In this document: positions 3,359 through 51,747 of the stretch, piece by piece
Layout of the letters: every line of letters starts with the position of its first letter
How positions within the stretch are numbered: the stretch's first letter is position 1
Source of the DNA: an uncultured SAR86 cluster bacterium
GTDB lineage: Bacteria; Pseudomonadota; Gammaproteobacteria; Magnimaribacterales; AG-339-G14
Assembly (NCBI GenBank): GCA_902526045.1
Contig: CABZJI010000001.1
Span: 315,248 to 379,247, forward strand
Reading direction: 5' to 3'
Length of the DNA stretch: 64,000 nt
The notes under the pieces: model-generated
Seen by the model: the letters and a program-made list of their open reading frames with translations, nothing else
What the model was told of the DNA's origin: nothing
Database searches by the model: none
Program-made: the position numbers and the translations under genes

Positions 3359-5152
3359 ATGTACGAAGAAGATTTAGAGAATAGCGGTTTAAGAGAACTC
3401 ATTGAAAAAGGAAGAGAGCAAGGATATATATCCTATGCTGATATCAATGATTTCTTGCCAGAAGATGTATCAGATCCTGATCAACTTGAGGAAGTCATTT
3501 CTCTAATCAATGAATTAGGGCTAGAAGTTTTGGAAAATCCTCCTGCTGAAGGATCAGATTTCATGCCTGCAGCAGAAAGCCCACAAGAACAACCAGATCC
3601 AGAAGGAGAAATAGCAATTGAGTCTGAGGTTGGAAGAACAACTGATCCAGTAAGGTTGTATATGAGGGAAATGGGATCTGTTGATCTATTGACCAGAGAG
3701 GGGGAAATATCAATAGCAAAAAGAATTGAAGATGGAGCAAGAGACTTACTTAGTGCATGTGTTCATTATCCTGGAGTGGTCGAGGGTATTATTGAAGATT
3801 ATAAGTTAACCAAAAAAGGAGAAAAAAGACTTTCAGATTTGATTGTTGGCTTTATGGATGAGGATGAGCCTCTCACTGAAGCTGCTGCTAATAAAAACAT
3901 TAAAGAATCAGATGATGATGTTGAGGAAGAGGAAGATTCCGGGATAAATGAAGAAGAGTTAGAAAAAAGATTCGCCTCTCTTAGAAGACAATTTAATAAA
4001 ACTGAAAAAACTATTTCTGCAAGTGGAAGAAGTAGCACGAAGGCTCAAACAGACTTAGAAAAGCTAGGTGAAATTTTTAAGTTTCTTAAATTATCACCAA
4101 AAAAATTCGAAACAATTGCTCTACCTGCAAGATTGAATTTCCAACAGGTAAAAGAACTAGAAAGGCTTATTTATGATATCTGCGTCAGAGAGTCAAAAAT
4201 GCCACGAAAAGAATTTATTGAAATCTTTGTTGGTAGCGAAACCAAAGCAAACTTTTTAGATTCAACCTTAAGATCAAAAAAAACATTCGTGAAAGAACTC
4301 AAAATCAGGAAACCTGAGATTAATTTAATTCAAAAAAGAATAAATGCTCTAGAAAAAGTTTCAGGATTGTCTGTTCGTCAGTTAAAAGAAGTTAATATGA
4401 AAATCACAAAAGGCGAATCAAAAATTAGAAGAGCTAAGAAAGATATGATTGAAGCTAATTTAAGGTTAGTTATATCAATAGCAAAAAAATATACAAATAG
4501 AGGTCTCCAATTTTTAGATCTTATTCAAGAAGGGAACATTGGCCTTATGAAGGCGGTAGATAAGTTTGAGTATAGAAGAGGATATAAGTTCTCCACTTAT
4601 GCAACTTGGTGGATACGACAAGCCATAACAAGGTCGATAGCAGACCAAGCCAGAACAATAAGAATTCCTGTCCATATGATTGAAACAATCAATAAACTCA
4701 ATAGAATTTCCAGACAAATGCTTCAGGAAATGGGTAGAGAACCTTCTCCAGAAGAACTAAGTGAAAGAATGGAAATGCCTGAAGATAAAGTAAGAAAAGT
4801 ATTAAAAATTGCCAAAGAGCCAATCTCCATGGAGACTCCTATAGGAGACGAGGATGACACCACTTTAGGAGACTTTATTGAGGATCCTCTTCAAAGTTCG
4901 CCTGTTGATGCTGCTACTGAAAATAATTTGACTGAAGCAACTGGAGATGTACTAGGGAGTTTAACAGCCAGGGAAGCTAAAGTTCTAAGAATGCGATTTG
5001 GTATTGGAATGAATACTGACCATACACTAGAAGAAGTTGGCAAACAATTTGATGTAACTAGAGAAAGAATAAGACAAATAGAAGCGAAAGCTTTAAGAAA
5101 ACTTAGACATCCATCAAGGTCAGCACATCTTAAAGGGTTCCTCGACGAATAA
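3359..5152 (+). CDS. rpoD: RNA polymerase primary sigma factor RpoD
   Basis: 597 aa; [32 protein letters not shown] and [21 protein letters not shown]. Confidence 0.98.
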
Positions 5153-7160: not shown

Positions 7161-9902
7161 TTAGAATCTGTACTGTATACCAGCTTTAACGATCCTTCCT
7201 ACAGGAGAATGAGTAAATGCATCATAACCCAACTCAGCAGGAGCCAATGGTGGCTTCTCATCAAGAAGGTTGTGGGCACTTAGATTAAGAGTAACTCTAT
7301 CATCAGCTAAATTTACTGAGTAATTGAAGTCTAATGTATTCATAGAATCAATCTTATCTCCTACAAATGTGTATCCCGCAGTAATAGTATCAGGGATCTC
7401 ATATTCACTTGTATGTCTCAAGTAGATGTTCATTCTATGAATATCGATATCAATACCTAATCCTAAGAACAGCTGAAGTTCCGGTAGAGATCTTATAACG
7501 ATTGGAGACACAGACGATCTAGTGTTGTACTTACCCACTGCTTCGTAAGTTGCTCCATCTAGAGCACCAATACCACCAGCAACGTCATATTGCGTAAGAT
7601 ATGTTCCACCATATGAAAATTGCATTACAGCATTTCCAGAATCAAAACCAACAGAACCTTCAAAATCAAGTCCTGAAACATCAACATCATCACCATTGAT
7701 GAAATCAGTTTCAATTCTAGCTACTCCACTAGTGTCATCACCAGGAGTGTTATAAATGATCCTAGCAGTAGGACTAGTCGAAGCCGTTCTTGCAAAACCA
7801 TTTGTGAACGCTAGGTTGAAGTAATCAAAAGTTAATTGGCTACGATCAGTTGGTCTGATGATAAACCCGATGTTCATGTTATCTGATTGCTCTGGTAACA
7901 GAGTTGAGGGAACTGGAGTCACTACAGTTACATACTCACCTATTGGGGCGTAACGTTCTAAAGACTCAGTTGGCTGACTCGCAAGAATAGGAGTTCTATA
8001 AGTTTGTTCATAAGAGAATCTCAAACTAAATATATCTGTAGCATCCCAAATGAAAGACAGTCTTGGTTTAGTCACTGAATCAATTTCATAATCAATGTAT
8101 CTAGCACCAAGTTGCAACTCAAAATTATCGCCAGCAGGTATTAAAACCTCACCAAATAATGAAGTAACTTCATTATCTGTTCTTTCAGTTTTATCCATAG
8201 TTAAAAAATGAAAAACAGTATTACATTTTCCATTGTCTGGACATCTGTTATCACCTGCAGCCCTATAAAAACCATAAAATTTTCTAAATTGTGCTCCAAC
8301 AGCCCAACCTATGTCGTTTGCACCCATTCCAGAGAAAACAAACTCTCCAACTGTAAGCGATTTCTTTTCTTCGCTTTCAGGTCCGCCCCAGAAGAAATCC
8401 CATGCGTCTGGATGATTGTAATAAGCAGCATCTGGAGATGCACCTATTGCAGCTCCAACTGGATTCCAATAGTGACAGTTACCAACACCTGCAGCCGCTA
8501 AGGCAGCGTCAGTTCCAATTTCATAGAATTCACCTGTAGCAGGATCTCTACAATCTTCTCCACCAATACCATTTAGGGCCATTGCATACCTATCAGTTAA
8601 AGTATCACCCCAGGCATTACTCCACTCTGTAGCGCCATAAGTGATACTCGCATCAAACGTAACTGATTCATTTATGTCAGTGGTTATACCAGCAACAATT
8701 CTATCTGAATCGTGATAGTTTGGCCTCTCCATTCCAGGACCTTCAATGGCTCTCGCTCTGTGCCAAGTTAAAGCAGAAGTTCCCATGTCCACGCCAGTGG
8801 CTCTCTCAATTTCTTGGAACCCTGGGTTATGGTCAGGAATAGCTAGGTAATAACCCGCAGCAGTTGGCGGATAAGAAGGCGATCCAGTATAAGTAGTATC
8901 CAAACCAGCATGCAAGTACTCAAAATATAAAACAGTATCATCATTTATATCCGATTCAGCTGTTACATAAAGTTTGTTTCTTGTTGTTGGATCAATGGCA
9001 TTTGAAAAAGGCACATAGTTGAATCCACATTTAGAGTGAGCACTTCCAGAGAGGACTGCTGAATAAGCAAGCCCCTTAGTTTTGGATTTAGCTACAGGAA
9101 CACTCATACCACAAGTTGGATCCATAATAGCGTCCTCACCCTGAGCAGCTCCACCAGCAATTGGATGCCAAGTTCCAGGATTACCAAATGATGATGCGCC
9201 TAAAGGCCAAGTAGTTGGATCTTTCCAATCAACCAGACCAAGATCTATGTTCATCAACCGTCCAATTTCTTCATATTCATAAGAAATAGTGAATCTGTTA
9301 TCACCGTTTTGATTTCCATAAATGAATCCAAAATTGTAACCAGGATCAGCATTATTAATGTTGGTAGTAGAAAGGTTCATCTCGAAACCTTCAAAGTCAG
9401 TTCTTGTAATCATATTGAACACACCAGCAACCGCATCAGAACCATATGTAGTAGAACCACCGTTTTTAAGCAATTCAATACGTTTCAAAGCAATCGATGG
9501 GAAGTTACCAATATCAACTGGCGACTCAGCAGAGTTAGTAGCAACAGCAGTTTCAACCATCCTCTTACCATTAATTAGAACAAGGGTTCTGGCAACACCA
9601 AGACCTCTTATGTTCACGTTTTTAATACCGGTTATTGTTCCTCCTTCAACGAATTGTTCAGACGTATTTACCGTTCCAGATACAGCAGTAAGATTCCTGA
9701 CTAGATCTGATATTTCCGGTTGTCCAGACGACTCAAAATCATCCCTATCGTAGGTATCTACAGGTACAGATAAAACTTCTCTGTCGGTAGCAATTAAAGA
9801 ACCAGTTACTACGACCTCTTCAGTATCATCATCCTGTGAATTAACAAAAGGAATGCAAAGGAGAGAGATTAAAAATAACCTTAATAAATAGAATTTATTC
9901 AT
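7161..9902 (-). CDS. TonB-dependent outer-membrane receptor
   Basis: 913 aa; signal peptide, EEVVVTGSLIATDRE plug start, NVRGLGVARTLVLINGKR, C-terminal GIQYRF. Confidence 0.93.
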   Translation of the reverse strand: MNKFYLLRLFLISLLCIPFVNSQDDDTEEVVVTGSLIATDREVLSVPVDTYDRDDFESSGQPEISDLVRNLTAVSGTVNTSEQFVEGGTITGIKNVNIRGLGVARTLVLINGKRMVETAVATNSAESPVDIGNFPSIALKRIELLKNGGSTTYGSDAVAGVFNMITRTDFEGFEMNLSTTNINNADPGYNFGFIYGNQNGDNRFTISYEYEEIGRLMNIDLGLVDWKDPTTWPLGASSFGNPGTWHPIAGGAAQGEDAIMDPTCGMSVPVAKSKTKGLAYSAVLSGSAHSKCGFNYVPFSNAIDPTTRNKLYVTAESDINDDTVLYFEYLHAGLDTTYTGSPSYPPTAAGYYLAIPDHNPGFQEIERATGVDMGTSALTWHRARAIEGPGMERPNYHDSDRIVAGITTDINESVTFDASITYGATEWSNAWGDTLTDRYAMALNGIGGEDCRDPATGEFYEIGTDAALAAAGVGNCHYWNPVGAAIGASPDAAYYNHPDAWDFFWGGPESEEKKSLTVGEFVFSGMGANDIGWAVGAQFRKFYGFYRAAGDNRCPDNGKCNTVFHFLTMDKTERTDNEVTSLFGEVLIPAGDNFELQLGARYIDYEIDSVTKPRLSFIWDATDIFSLRFSYEQTYRTPILASQPTESLERYAPIGEYVTVVTPVPSTLLPEQSDNMNIGFIIRPTDRSQLTFDYFNLAFTNGFARTASTSPTARIIYNTPGDDTSGVARIETDFINGDDVDVSGLDFEGSVGFDSGNAVMQFSYGGTYLTQYDVAGGIGALDGATYEAVGKYNTRSSVSPIVIRSLPELQLFLGLGIDIDIHRMNIYLRHTSEYEIPDTITAGYTFVGDKIDSMNTLDFNYSVNLADDRVTLNLSAHNLLDEKPPLAPAELGYDAFTHSPVGRIVKAGIQYRF

Positions 9903-10069: not shown

Positions 10070-10088
10070 GGAATTGATAATCATTCTC
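10070..10088. promoter_or_regulatory. predicted Fur box 1
   Basis: GGAATTGATAATCATTCTC, 15/19 by eye to GATAATGATAATCATTATC; overlaps the -35 of a TTGATA-N16-TATAAT promoter. Confidence 0.75.
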
Positions 10089-10101
10089 ATTTGTATATAA
10101 T
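10074..10101 (+). promoter_or_regulatory. predicted sigma70 promoter for siderophore receptor
   Basis: TTGATA 10074-10079, 16-nt spacer, TATAAT 10096-10101, bracketed by Fur boxes. Confidence 0.65.
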
Positions 10102-10102
10102 T

Positions 10103-10121
10103 GCGAATGATTCTCATTATC
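10103..10121. promoter_or_regulatory. predicted Fur box 2
   Basis: GCGAATGATTCTCATTATC, 15/19 by eye to the Fur consensus; immediately downstream of -10. Confidence 0.8.
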
Positions 10122-10157
10122 AACATGAAAATCAACTTAAAACTTTGGGAAAAAATT

Positions 10158-12215
10158 ATGAAAAAATTTATATACACCGCATTATTCTTAATAAGTTCAA
10201 TTAGCATATTCGCTCAAAATAATGATGATGTTGAAGAGGTGGAAGTAAAAGGAAAAGTCCTTTACGTTGATCAGGTTAATTCTTTAACACCTCCAGTGCC
10301 GATTTTAGATGTCCCGCAATCAGTTTCTGTTGTAACAGATGAGGATATAAAAAATCAGGGTTTTAGAGAAATATCAGACATAATAAGGTATACCCCTGGT
10401 GTAAATACTTCTCAGGGTGAAGGACACCGTGACGCTGTTGTCTTTAGAGGAGTTAGATCTACCGCAGATTTTTACCAAGATGGTGTCAGAGATGATGTTC
10501 AGTACTATCGATCTCTCTACAATGTTGAGCAAGTAGAGGTCCTCAGGGGAGCAAATGCACTTTTATTTGGTAGAGGTGGAACAGGTGGTTTAATCAACAG
10601 AGTATCAAAAAAGGCAGAGATTGGAGAAGCTTTCGGAAGTTTTGATATTGGTGCTGACTCTTTTGGAGGGTCTGACATAGCCTTAGATGCTAACTTTGCA
10701 ACCTCACAAAATACTGCAATTAGGCTTAATCTTCATACCGACTCTTTAGCAAATCACAGGGATTTTTATGAAGGAGAGAGGTATGGAATTAATCCTACCG
10801 TAAAAGTTCAAGTCAACGATGATACAGTGATTGATTTATCATATGAATACGCAGATCACGAAAGGTTCATTGATAGAGGTATCCCAACCGAAAATGGAGC
10901 TCCAGTTGAAGCACTTAAGGATGTTGTTTTTGGTACAAAAGATCTTAACTTGCAAACCTTAGAAGCAAGCATATTAAAAGGTATTCTTTCACATAATTAT
11001 TCAGAAACGGGGAAATTGAATATTTCTGTTACCGCAAATGATTTCAGCAAGTTATATAAAAACCTTTATGCATCTGGTTATGATGGGACATTAGTGACTA
11101 TGGATGGTTATTTGGACCCCACAAGCAGAGAAAGTCTAATTTTCTCAGGAAATATTGTTAATGAATTTTCCAATGGCTCAACCACCGGAACAGTATTATT
11201 TGGTTATGACTACCTAGATACAGATAATAAAAATTATCGTTACAACACCTTCTTTTCAAATACTGAGGATGATAATGAAATTTTCAAGGTGTCAAGGCCG
11301 ATGGATTTTTCTGTGAATTCAGATGGTATTGCTTCAACTGTTGACTATACAACAGACCTTAAGAGCAAATCAGAATCAGATATAGAAGTAAACTCCTTGT
11401 ACCTGCAAGGGGATATAAACTTTAATGATCAATGGAAAATGATAATTGGAGGAAGATTAGAAACTTTCGATATCACTGTAACGGATGTTAAAAAATCTCA
11501 AGCTCAAACAAGAGAGGACAACGTTTTCTCTCCAAGATTTGGAGTTATCTACAAACCCCAAGAAACGATGTCAGTTTATTTGAGTTACAGCGAAAGTTTT
11601 CTGCCAAGATCTGGTGAACAATTTAAAGCTTTGAGCGCCTCATCGGCAGCTCTTGATCCAGATGTATTTGAGAATACAGAACTAGGTTTTAAATATGATA
11701 TTAGCGAAAGACTTTTTCTTGCTTTAAGTGCTTTCAATAGTGAGCAAACTAGAGCAGAAAGGACGGACGCTGATGCCGAGCAATCTTTTGTTAGAGGTCT
11801 AAAAGTTAGCGGATTTGAAATAGAACTGACAGGAGATATCGATGATCAAAATAGCTTATCTTTTGGATATTCCTCCCTTGATGGTGAGACAAAAAGTGGG
11901 GGTCAACCAAGAGAGATTCCTGAACAAATGCTCTCTGCTTGGTATTCATACCAAGCAAACGATCTATTTGGTCTTGGAATTGGTGTAACGCATCAAGGAG
12001 AGTCAGCAATAAAAGATGATAAGCCAACATTATTGTTACCCGACTATACTAGAATTGACTTTGCATTCTTCTTTAATGTTTCTGAAAATGATGTTGTAAG
12101 GATAAATGTAGAGAATGCTACTGATGAGTTATATTTTCCTCATTCGCATAGTACTCACCAAGCTTCAGTAGGGGAGTCAGTAAATGCAAGAGTCTCATAC
12201 ACAAGAAGGTTCTAA
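10158..12215 (+). CDS. TonB-dependent siderophore receptor (Fiu/catecholate-type)
   Basis: Start refined from 10101 to ATG 10158, where the signal peptide MKKFIYTALFLISSISIFAQ begins; VPQSVSVVTDEDI, YTPGVNTSQGEG, FRGVRSTADFYQDGVRDD, RVSYTRRF C-terminus. Confidence 0.92.
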   Translation: MKKFIYTALFLISSISIFAQNNDDVEEVEVKGKVLYVDQVNSLTPPVPILDVPQSVSVVTDEDIKNQGFREISDIIRYTPGVNTSQGEGHRDAVVFRGVRSTADFYQDGVRDDVQYYRSLYNVEQVEVLRGANALLFGRGGTGGLINRVSKKAEIGEAFGSFDIGADSFGGSDIALDANFATSQNTAIRLNLHTDSLANHRDFYEGERYGINPTVKVQVNDDTVIDLSYEYADHERFIDRGIPTENGAPVEALKDVVFGTKDLNLQTLEASILKGILSHNYSETGKLNISVTANDFSKLYKNLYASGYDGTLVTMDGYLDPTSRESLIFSGNIVNEFSNGSTTGTVLFGYDYLDTDNKNYRYNTFFSNTEDDNEIFKVSRPMDFSVNSDGIASTVDYTTDLKSKSESDIEVNSLYLQGDINFNDQWKMIIGGRLETFDITVTDVKKSQAQTREDNVFSPRFGVIYKPQETMSVYLSYSESFLPRSGEQFKALSASSAALDPDVFENTELGFKYDISERLFLALSAFNSEQTRAERTDADAEQSFVRGLKVSGFEIELTGDIDDQNSLSFGYSSLDGETKSGGQPREIPEQMLSAWYSYQANDLFGLGIGVTHQGESAIKDDKPTLLLPDYTRIDFAFFFNVSENDVVRINVENATDELYFPHSHSTHQASVGESVNARVSYTRRF

Positions 12216-12236
12216 AAAAATTAGAGAGAGATATGT

Positions 12237-12481
12237 TTGCTCCGAGTTCCATGATTTCAAAAGCCGCTGGCGGAGCGGTAATGAATTTCAATACCCTGAT
12301 GAGGATTCGGAGCAATTCATCTCAAAAAGTTCAGTTCTTTTTAGGAGAGAGAACTGAAGGGAAAATCAATCTTACCATCTGTACCTACCATCAAGATTGA
12401 TTTTCCCTGCAACTTAAAGATTCTGGAAGAGTTTATTTTATTCGCTCCATAACACCCCTTATGAAAAATTAAGCTCTTCCG
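12237..12481. other. dense cluster of four inverted repeats/hairpins in an intergenic region (candidate structured RNA)
   Basis: H1 12237-12249/12303-12315; H2 TTCAGTTCT 12330-12338/AGAACTGAA 12350-12358; H3 AGGGAAAATCAATCTT 12358-12373/AAGATTGATTTTCCCT 12393-12408 (16 bp perfect); H4 GGAAGAGTTTA 12425-12435/TAAGCTCTTCC 12470-12480. Confidence 0.6.
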
Positions 12482-12505
12482 CTCTTTATTTGCTAAATTA
12501 TCATA

Positions 12506-13414
12506 ATGAATGAGTTCATCATAGTTTTCAGAGAAACTCTTGAGGCTTCTCTTATTGTAGGGATTATCTACACAATCCTTATAAAAAATGAATTGTATGA
12601 ATCTATTAAGAAACTTTGGATTGGTGTTGCTGCAGCCCTTGTTTTTAGCGTCCTCGTAGGTTATCTGGTTTACGTGCTCAAGGAGAGTTTCAGCAATGAA
12701 TCTGCAAGGGCTCTTTTTGAATCAATATTTATGTTTATTACTGCCGGTTTGATTTGGTATGTCATTTTCTGGCTATCAAAACATGTAAGCGATAGAAAAC
12801 AAATTGAGGTCGAAACAAATACTGCTGTTCAGGCGTCAACCTGGGGAATTTTCTTTGTAATTTTCTTCTCCATCCTAAGAGAGGGATTTGAAACTGCAAT
12901 TTTCCTTTTGGGCAGCTTTTCAATGACAGGTTCCTTTAGTTATCTCGGGTTCACTATAGGTGCAGCATTAGCAATTTTAATTGGTTATCTTGTTGTTGTT
13001 CAGGGCAAAAGAATTAATTTAAGATCTTTCTTTCAAGGGACAACTTTATTACTGGTATTTTTGGCATCAGGCATGATTGCTTATGGAACCCACGAAGCAG
13101 AAAGTTACCTTGTCAAATCAGACAATCTCCAATTGATAGGTATAGAAAATAAATCAGACATCGCTCGTCCTTGGGATATCTTACAACCCAAAACTAGTCT
13201 TGACGAAACAGACAACTCTTTCTTTTATTCCTACGATTTGAAGGGCAAACAACAGTATACGCACATCATGCACGACAGCGGAAGAGTTGGTGTATTTCTC
13301 AAAGGATTCTTTGGCTACAACAGCAATCCAAACTACATTGAATTACTTTTCTGGATTATCTCTTTGGTCGGAGGGATAGCTCTTTGGAGATCTTTCTATC
13401 GCCCAGCAACCTAA
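12506..13414 (+). CDS. FTR1-family high-affinity iron permease
   Basis: 302 aa membrane protein with two REXXE motifs, FRETLEAS and LREGFETA. Confidence 0.93.
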   Translation: MNEFIIVFRETLEASLIVGIIYTILIKNELYESIKKLWIGVAAALVFSVLVGYLVYVLKESFSNESARALFESIFMFITAGLIWYVIFWLSKHVSDRKQIEVETNTAVQASTWGIFFVIFFSILREGFETAIFLLGSFSMTGSFSYLGFTIGAALAILIGYLVVVQGKRINLRSFFQGTTLLLVFLASGMIAYGTHEAESYLVKSDNLQLIGIENKSDIARPWDILQPKTSLDETDNSFFYSYDLKGKQQYTHIMHDSGRVGVFLKGFFGYNSNPNYIELLFWIISLVGGIALWRSFYRPAT

Positions 13415-13415
13415 G

Positions 13416-14657
13416 TTAAGAATTTAAATTTACTACTTTGTTGTATGCCTCAACCCTTTCTAGAGACATTTCTGTCCAAACATCATCAATAGCATTTAAA
13501 AAGTTTTGAATATCCGTTGCGTTATGTTTTGGGGTAATTGTCACTCTAAATCTTTCATCACCTTTTGGGACTGTTGGGAAGAAGACAGGCTGAATATATA
13601 TTCCGTGCTTATCAACTAAGAGATTTGCTGCGTCTTTACACAGGACTGGATCTTTAATAAGAATTGGAATTATGTGACTATCATTTTCGATAAATGGAAT
13701 ATTGAGATCTCTTAAACCAGTTCTAATTTGATCAGAATTGAATTTTATTTCTCTTCTTAGGTGATCTGCTTTTTTGGCTAATTTTATTGCTTTGACAGAA
13801 CTTGCAACAATGGACGGATTTACTGATGAAGTAAATATAAATCCAGGAGCAAAACTTCTAATAAAATCTATGATATCCGCGTTAGCAGCTACATAACCAC
13901 CTAGTTGACCAAAAGATTTTGAGAGAGTTCCGTTAATAATATCTATTTTATCGGCGACTCCAGCTTCAGCAGCAATACCCCTTCCTTCTGGACCGTATAA
14001 GCCAACAGAATGAACTTCGTCTAGGTAGGTAAGCGCATTATATTTCTCTGCAAGCCAAATAATCTTTTCAATGGGAGACCTTAAGCCTTCCATAGAATAG
14101 AGGGACTCAAAGACAATCATTTTAGGAGTATTTGCATTTGACGTTCTCAACAGCTCCTCTAGATGTTCGGTATCATTGTGTCTAAAAATATGAACTTTCA
14201 CGTTTGCATTTTTTATTCCTTGAATCATCGAAGCATGATTTAGTTCATCTGAATATATTTCAATTCCTTCTAGTTTTTTGCATAAAGTCCATAAAGTAGA
14301 TTGATTGGCTGTATAGGCAGAAGGAAATATCAAGGCAGAATCTTTTTTATGCAATTCAGCAAGTGTTCTTTCAAGATCCGCATGATATGAAGAAGTTCCA
14401 GAGATGTTTCTTGTACCGCCAGAGCCAGTTCCTAACTCTTGTGTAACTTTGATGGTTTCATTAACAATAGCAGGATGTTGACTTAGGTTTAAATAATCAT
14501 TACTACACCAAACCTCAACCTGTCTTTTAGACTCTCCATCGTGTTCGGTTGCTTTTGGAAAAGTGGATCGTGTTCTATTTATTTCGCGAAATTTTCTATA
14601 TAAACCCTGTGACTTAAGGGATTTAAGTTCGTCGCTAAAAAATTTTTCATAATTCAT
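13416..14657 (-). CDS. hemA: 5-aminolevulinate synthase (ALAS, C4/Shemin pathway)
   Basis: [91 protein letters not shown]; adjacent to other hem genes. Confidence 0.92.
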
Positions 14658-50850: not shown

Positions 50851-51296
50851 TAATCCTCCCTTAGTAGATAATTTTTTGCTGCTTGAAAGGCCATTAAATA
50901 ACTTTCCTTTCCAAATCCTGAAACCACGCCTAAAGCAATGTCTGAAAAATATGACTTTTCTCTAAATTCTTCTCTGCCATAAATGTTCGACAAATGTATT
51001 TCAATCAAAGGAATATTTACACCGAGTATTGCATCTCTCAAAGATATGCTTGAGTGGGTGAAGGCTCCTGGATTAAACAGAATAACTTTTACTCCATTAG
51101 ATTTAGCATCATGAATCTTATCAACTAACTCATGCTCTGCATTGCTTTGAAAGCATTCGGTTTCGATATTATTCTCTTTGCCAAGCTCTTTAATTGTTTT
51201 TTCAATGTCTTCAAGAGAAAACTCTCCATAAATATCTGGCTCTCTTTCACCTAAAAGATTTAAATTTGGCCCATTTAAAAGCAAGATCGAAGACAT
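50850..51296 (-). CDS. aroQ: type II 3-dehydroquinate dehydratase
   Basis: LLLNGPNLNLLGEREPDIYG, FNPGAFTHSSISLRDAI, EIHLSNIYGREEFR. Confidence 0.97.
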   Translation of the reverse strand: MSSILLLNGPNLNLLGEREPDIYGEFSLEDIEKTIKELGKENNIETECFQSNAEHELVDKIHDAKSNGVKVILFNPGAFTHSSISLRDAILGVNIPLIEIHLSNIYGREEFREKSYFSDIALGVVSGFGKESYLMAFQAAKNYLLRED

Positions 51297-51306
51297 TTAC
51301 CGAATT

Positions 51307-51747
51307 TTAAAGTATTTTTTTTGAAATTAAACGATTTTCTTTGAATAATAGATCTATTTTGTTAACTTTTTCTGGGTAGCAGTATTTCCCTTGGTAGCAT
51401 CCCAAATAGTTTAATTTGAATGACAAAATGCCATCCTTCAGATTTGGGACATTAAAGAAAATATTATTGATGAAGACTTTAGATTCTCCAAAAAACTCAT
51501 CTTTAATGACTGATGACTCTGTATCTACCTTAAAATTTTTATTTGCCGGAGAGATTGAATAGTTTAGCTTATTGGCATAAACGTAAACATTTTGATGTAA
51601 TTTTAAATCTATCAAAACATGATCATCAAAAGAATTTATAGTGATAGTATATGCTTCCTCAGGAGATATGAACTTATCGGTCGTCTCAATAAATAAGAAA
51701 CTATTGCTCGAAAAAACAGCTGAAACAAATAGTAAAAATAATTTCAT
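51307..51747 (-). CDS. stand-alone DsbD N-terminal (alpha) domain-like periplasmic protein
   Basis: Start refined to [19 protein letters not shown] (signal peptide); C-x5-C in YLGCYQGKYCYPEK matches the DsbD-alpha YQGCADAGFCYPP pattern; no membrane or thioredoxin domain encoded. Confidence 0.75.
   Translation of the reverse strand: MKLFLLFVSAVFSSNSFLFIETTDKFISPEEAYTITINSFDDHVLIDLKLHQNVYVYANKLNYSISPANKNFKVDTESSVIKDEFFGESKVFINNIFFNVPNLKDGILSFKLNYLGCYQGKYCYPEKVNKIDLLFKENRLISKKIL

Follow-up and report, generated by a model that had tools for sequence, protein, structure and literature searches.

A probable chaperone-independent iron-sparing RNA in the 3'UTR of a SAR86 siderophore receptor mRNA, with a loop that appears to co-evolve with the katG start region

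The gap between a TonB-dependent siderophore receptor gene and the FTR1 iron permease gene in a 64,000-nt stretch of SAR86 DNA (the window) probably encodes an antisense RNA that is part of a 3'UTR, is under Fur control and saves iron and heme, a reading to which we assign a probability of about 0.75. SAR86 bacteria are uncultured, abundant in the ocean and often short of iron. The reading draws on the structure of the gap, its covariation and conservation, its location 3' of the receptor gene in each of four genera and a complementarity kept through change on both sides, all of them observations on sequence; transcription, Fur control, processing and translational repression we infer. The window genus is labeled g1, and g2, g3 and g4 are labels for sister SAR86 genera.

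Fold, conservation and position of the receptor-FTR1 gap

The features of the window that bear on this reading are the following.

10070-10127, + strand: promoter of the receptor, with two Fur-box-like sites (10070-10094 and 10103-10127), each with 15/19 matches to the Fur consensus; the pair is present in all six congeners
10125-12215 (start codon 10125 or 10158), + strand: TonB-dependent siderophore receptor gene with the RNA as its putative 3'UTR; ORF with TIGR01783 above cut-off, PF00593 and PF07715
12237-12315, + strand: H1, branched hairpin with two-sided pair changes; covariation score reached by 0/500 shuffles
12330-12358, + strand: H2 hairpin with loop TTTTTAGGAGAG; stem nearly unchanged across seven genomes
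12358-12408, + strand: H3 hairpin with a perfect 16-bp stem (12358-12373/12393-12408)
12374-12392, + strand: H3 loop ACCATCTGTACCTACCATC, 19 nt, invariant in 6/7 genomes; predicted to act as the antisense seed for katG (and, in congeners, ALAS)
12424-12481, + strand: H4 hairpin with exposed AACACCCCT, kept in seven genomes; possible second pairing segment or FTR1 leader hairpin
12506-13414, + strand: FTR1 iron permease (PF03239), the downstream gene in g1 only
13416-14657, - strand: 5-aminolevulinate synthase (ALAS, TIGR01821), second predicted target in relatives

The refolded gap (12216-12505, 290 nt) has a minimum free energy of -94.9 kcal/mol compared with -58.8 ± 4.4 kcal/mol for dinucleotide shuffles (z -8.28, with 0/200 shuffles folding equally well), and the four strong hairpins reported by the first-pass annotation are present where it had placed them, including H3 with its perfect stem and 19-nt loop. 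H3 is the highest-scoring stem-loop in a scan of 1.157 Mb of the window genome. The ordinary terminators of this genome have loops of 3-5 nt and T-tracts, neither of which is seen in H3, and a scan of the gap for intrinsic terminators returned none, with no clear terminator after the RNA in g1; an intrinsic terminator as the identity of H3 is rejected on the size of the loop and on the absent T-tract, the latter already used as an argument by the annotation. The gap sequence is single copy, the sole other notable match being that of H3 to its own opposite arm, which removes the REP/MITE-type repeat that had been raised as an alternative. No Rfam covariance model, those for RyhB and PrrF included, matched the gap above its gathering score, and its description as an undescribed structured RNA holds. 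The exact H3 loop was absent from the viral contigs. The gap had also been called the largest intergenic one, which is not confirmed: with a simple ORF caller it is second in the window to a gap of 344 nt (about 51296-51641), and genome-wide ~32 of 1116 gaps have a length of at least 290 nt, with a median gap of 3 nt.

The receptor-gap-FTR1 order is common to six congeners and all four hairpins are kept. H2 and H3 together show 96% identity between species, with ~60% at the third codon positions of FTR1 and the receptor. H1 varies yet remains paired, five pairs having changes on both sides, and in slid versions of the pairing the proportion of paired cells drops from 91% to 31-50%. H3 shows one compensatory change, from a T:A to a C:G pair in L042, so that the compensatory changes proposed earlier as a check on the structure are found in both hairpins. 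A small ORF in H1 (ATGAA...TAG) was considered and rejected: L040 has an in-frame stop, L041 has a frameshift, and the covariation of the stem points to RNA. In 7/7 genomes the better fold is that of the + strand, and the RNA is therefore taken to be read in the direction of the genes.

In g2, g3 and g4 the receptor lies downstream of FTR1 and a strongly structured RNA is still located 3' of the receptor, with ALAS, where visible, next after the receptor on the opposite strand. The structured RNA accordingly follows the receptor stop codon on the same strand in four genera whatever the position of FTR1. Because the order in g2-g4 is FTR1, receptor and then RNA, H1-H3 are assigned to the receptor 3'UTR and not to an FTR1 leader; H4 may belong to either. 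The gap is, on this comparison, the 3'UTR of a TonB siderophore receptor mRNA with two putative Fur boxes at the promoter. The earlier suggestion of a cis-regulatory UTR or an iron-linked sRNA is borne out in the location at the receptor 3' end and in a loop complementary to the ribosome-binding sites of iron and heme genes, but not as an FTR1 leader.

From the receptor stop codon onwards, the g3 RNA (~200 nt) has TTTAGGAGAG, then a variable stem, another stem whose loop is TTTTCATTTCATCTCAT, the segment AGATCTCCCCCT and an intrinsic terminator. This loop is unchanged in nearly all g3 genomes and is placed at the receptor 3' end in every g3 genome that has it, with one extra near-match in G033. 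The TTAGGAGAG motif, found in H2 in g1, also occurs 3' of the receptor stop codon in g3. The g4 receptor 3' RNA carries TTCTTGAGGAAGTTTTCACTTCCATTTATTAAGAACTTCCTCAAGAA, and in that of g2 an internal loop contains TACCCTC and a terminator is present; the intrinsic terminator that ends the RNA is clear in g3 and g2. Three g4 loci (L219-L221) share a TAGAGGCATTGAGAT-like motif located downstream of the hairpin at the receptor 3' end.

Complementarity of the loops to katG and other start regions

Of the 594 start regions that the window genome shares with G003, that of katG, a heme catalase-peroxidase by its domain models, gives the best joint score with the H3 loop, and katG is again first when the RBS alone is scored. 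The g1 katG site TATGGAGGTACAACATGG pairs with nearly the whole H3 loop over the SD and start codon. The katG start regions were read across the whole family: the g3 site ATGAGGTGAAAT forms 12 bp (one G-U) with the g3 loop, the g4 site ATAAATGGAAG spans the start codon in its 11-bp pairing with the g4 loop, and the g2 site GAGGGTA forms 7 bp only with the g2 segment, the sites in all four genera coinciding with the SD or the start codon. The loops and the katG sites differ between genera, and the true loop-target assignment is the best of 24, with the next 8.8 kcal/mol behind. The shuffled-loop p for loop-katG pairing is 0.002-0.007 in each genus, with some freedom in the choice of the single-stranded segment scored per genus. 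As g1 served to select katG, independent tests come from g2-g4 only, and the ranks in g2 and g4 are relative to other SAR86 start regions and not to the genome's own. In g3 the loop alone ranks katG 6/389. The best single H3-loop energy in g1 is not beyond the values that shuffled loops reach somewhere in the genome, and in L043 the pairing with its own katG is weak. As far as the compared sequences indicate, loop-katG complementarity is kept through change on both sides in four genera.

A joint ranking of 244 orthologous genes, whose start regions from two g1 genomes and from g3 were scored against each genus's own loop, places katG first, ALAS (heme synthesis) second and gltB third, the last of which we take, from its sequence alone, to be the glutamate synthase large subunit (GltB, an Fe-S enzyme). 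When the loops are exchanged katG falls to 10 and ALAS to 70. ALAS has a perfect 13-bp site in g3 and sites of 9-10 bp in three g1 genomes (L039, L041 and L098), with 10 bp in a shifted register in L042 and a weak site in L043; the window genome has lost the site and g4 has none. In g3 acnB the sequence ATGAGATG is present over the start codon in 14/15 genomes, even without an upstream GGAG, and the remaining genome has AGATGAAATG; no acnB site was found in g2 or g4. The ACCCCU of H4 is complementary to the g1 acnB start region, which ranks fifth of 594, weak evidence for a possible pairing there. Counted by genus, pairing is predicted for katG in four, ALAS in two and acnB in one. Conserved targets were also sought for the H2 loop, the ACCCTG of H1 and the g3 CUCCCCCU segment, none of them convincing.

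A general anti-SD role was rejected on the weak SD use of the window genome, in which AGGA, GGAG or GAGG occurs in 19% of start regions compared with 13% of a control stretch, and on the g4 site, which lies over the start codon and not the SD.

Two further start regions have related features. A divergent TonB receptor gene in the window (7161-9902, - strand) has the start TAGGGGGAAAATTATG, with which the CCCC segments of H4 in g1 and of the g3 UTR (CUCCCCCU) could pair in both genera. Elsewhere in the window genome a gene with an AurF-like di-iron domain (G000:C4:7728-8879) has AGGTAC and ATGG in its start region and matches the H3 loop in the same two parts as katG does.

Alternative readings, proposed mechanism and known systems

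Very stable stems directly after the receptor stop codon in every genus, an H3 without a T-tract and the lack of an own Fur box at FTR1 in g1 would all suit an intercistronic structure with loops that have no trans target, serving to stabilise the 3' end of the receptor mRNA and to reduce expression of FTR1 downstream. We regard this as unlikely, as stability needs no invariant 19-nt loop, the loop-target matching of four genera is left unexplained and FTR1 is not downstream in g2-g4. Lower still is the probability of a binding site for an RNA-binding protein that reads G-poor loops and autoregulates the receptor or FTR1. The loops are G-poor and C/U/A-rich throughout, and similar ones occur in hairpins near FTR1 outside the family, but they diverge strongly between genera, which is unfavourable for a protein site, and the katG complementarity persists. 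A cis-acting, riboswitch-like 5' leader of FTR1 appears highly improbable given that the g2-g4 RNA is downstream of the receptor with FTR1 upstream of it and that Rfam gave no match, even though in g1 the RNA is directly upstream of FTR1 with H4 near its start and hairpins are also seen in FTR1 leaders outside the family; for H1-H3 a leader is already disfavoured, and H4 alone could be one.

The antisense RNA favoured here would operate at low iron, when Fur would let go and the receptor mRNA would be made. The 3' end of this mRNA, whether cut out as a small RNA or left in place, would expose the pyrimidine-rich loop on its long stem, and the loop would pair with the SD/start-codon region of the katG mRNA and, depending on genus, with the mRNAs of 5-aminolevulinate synthase, AcnB and possibly GltB. 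Translation of the paired mRNAs would be blocked and iron and heme saved without Hfq. A Pfam search detected Hfq in 0/40 genomes of the family, 13 of them at least 90% complete, with a positive E. coli control, and ProQ was not found in the window genome; chaperone-free action must therefore be assumed. It is likely that the receptor-mRNA 3'UTR holds a chaperone-independent SAR86 iron-sparing regulon in which the loop seed and the RBSs of katG and heme enzymes co-evolve, the loop being replaced between genera and the pairing kept. If true, SAR86 would have a post-transcriptional switch for sparing iron that is built into siderophore uptake and needs neither Hfq nor ProQ, and this would also be a clear natural case of RNA-target co-evolution.

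The small RNA s-SodF of Streptomyces coelicolor originates in the 3'UTR of an mRNA under metal (Fur-family) regulation and, like the SAR86 RNA, has complementarity to the mRNA of a different metalloenzyme, in the 5' region and RBS (PMC3919588). The systems differ in that s-SodF belongs to nickel, Nur and SOD isoenzymes in an actinobacterium, whereas the SAR86 RNA belongs to a siderophore receptor, katG and heme synthesis; processing was demonstrated by experiment for s-SodF and is predicted for the SAR86 RNA.

RyhB, PrrF and IsrR are stand-alone sRNA genes. Their expression responds to iron and they silence genes for Fe-S, heme and catalase proteins, as is predicted for the SAR86 RNA, and they differ from it in that the SAR86 RNA is carried by a siderophore-receptor mRNA in a lineage without Hfq. 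The C-rich regions of IsrR pair with RBSs and catalase is lowered (PMC11257911), and katG is named as a RyhB target in E. coli by Ribo-seq in work quoted in a passage of PMC6393394. Iron and heme targets, as expected of a RyhB-like RNA, are seen in the top joint matches katG, ALAS and gltB and in acnB in g3; Hfq dependence is not seen in SAR86, and IsrR indicates that such a function can exist outside the RyhB family. SdhX of E. coli is a 3'-end-derived sRNA that represses katG via Shine-Dalgarno pairing, but it is Hfq-dependent, derives from a TCA operon and has its katG pairing in Escherichia/Shigella only (PMC6393394), whereas the SAR86 pairing with katG extends across four genera with both sides changed.

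By sequence model the SAR86 RNA is not a member of s-SodF, RyhB/PrrF/IsrR or SdhX, and what is new is that a siderophore-receptor 3'UTR, a host lacking Hfq and a loop seed co-evolving with katG come together. A review of 3'-end sRNAs (PMC9438474) mentions neither TonB nor receptors, and a search of the literature on SAR86 small RNAs found nothing relevant.

Similar structures outside the family

Hairpins with long stems and ACCCTC/AACCTT-rich loops, e.g. TAACCCTCATAACCCTC, are present in L045, L047, L048, L051, L052, L056, L060 and L062 (upstream of FTR1, about 4870-4985). They are located at FTR1 leaders or after TonB receptors, and their stems differ and their loops look alike. The receptor loops of L045 and L048 may pair with their own katG (p 0.016 and 0.01, respectively); the loops of L051 and L062 do no better than shuffles against katG, and a whole-UTR duplex search in the outgroups was uninformative. 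In the alphaproteobacterial PS1/OCS116 clade (L066, L067, L069 and L104) a receptor ~60% identical is found with FTR1 alongside, and its strongly structured 3' region contains GAGGGGTAC and ATACCCCTC.
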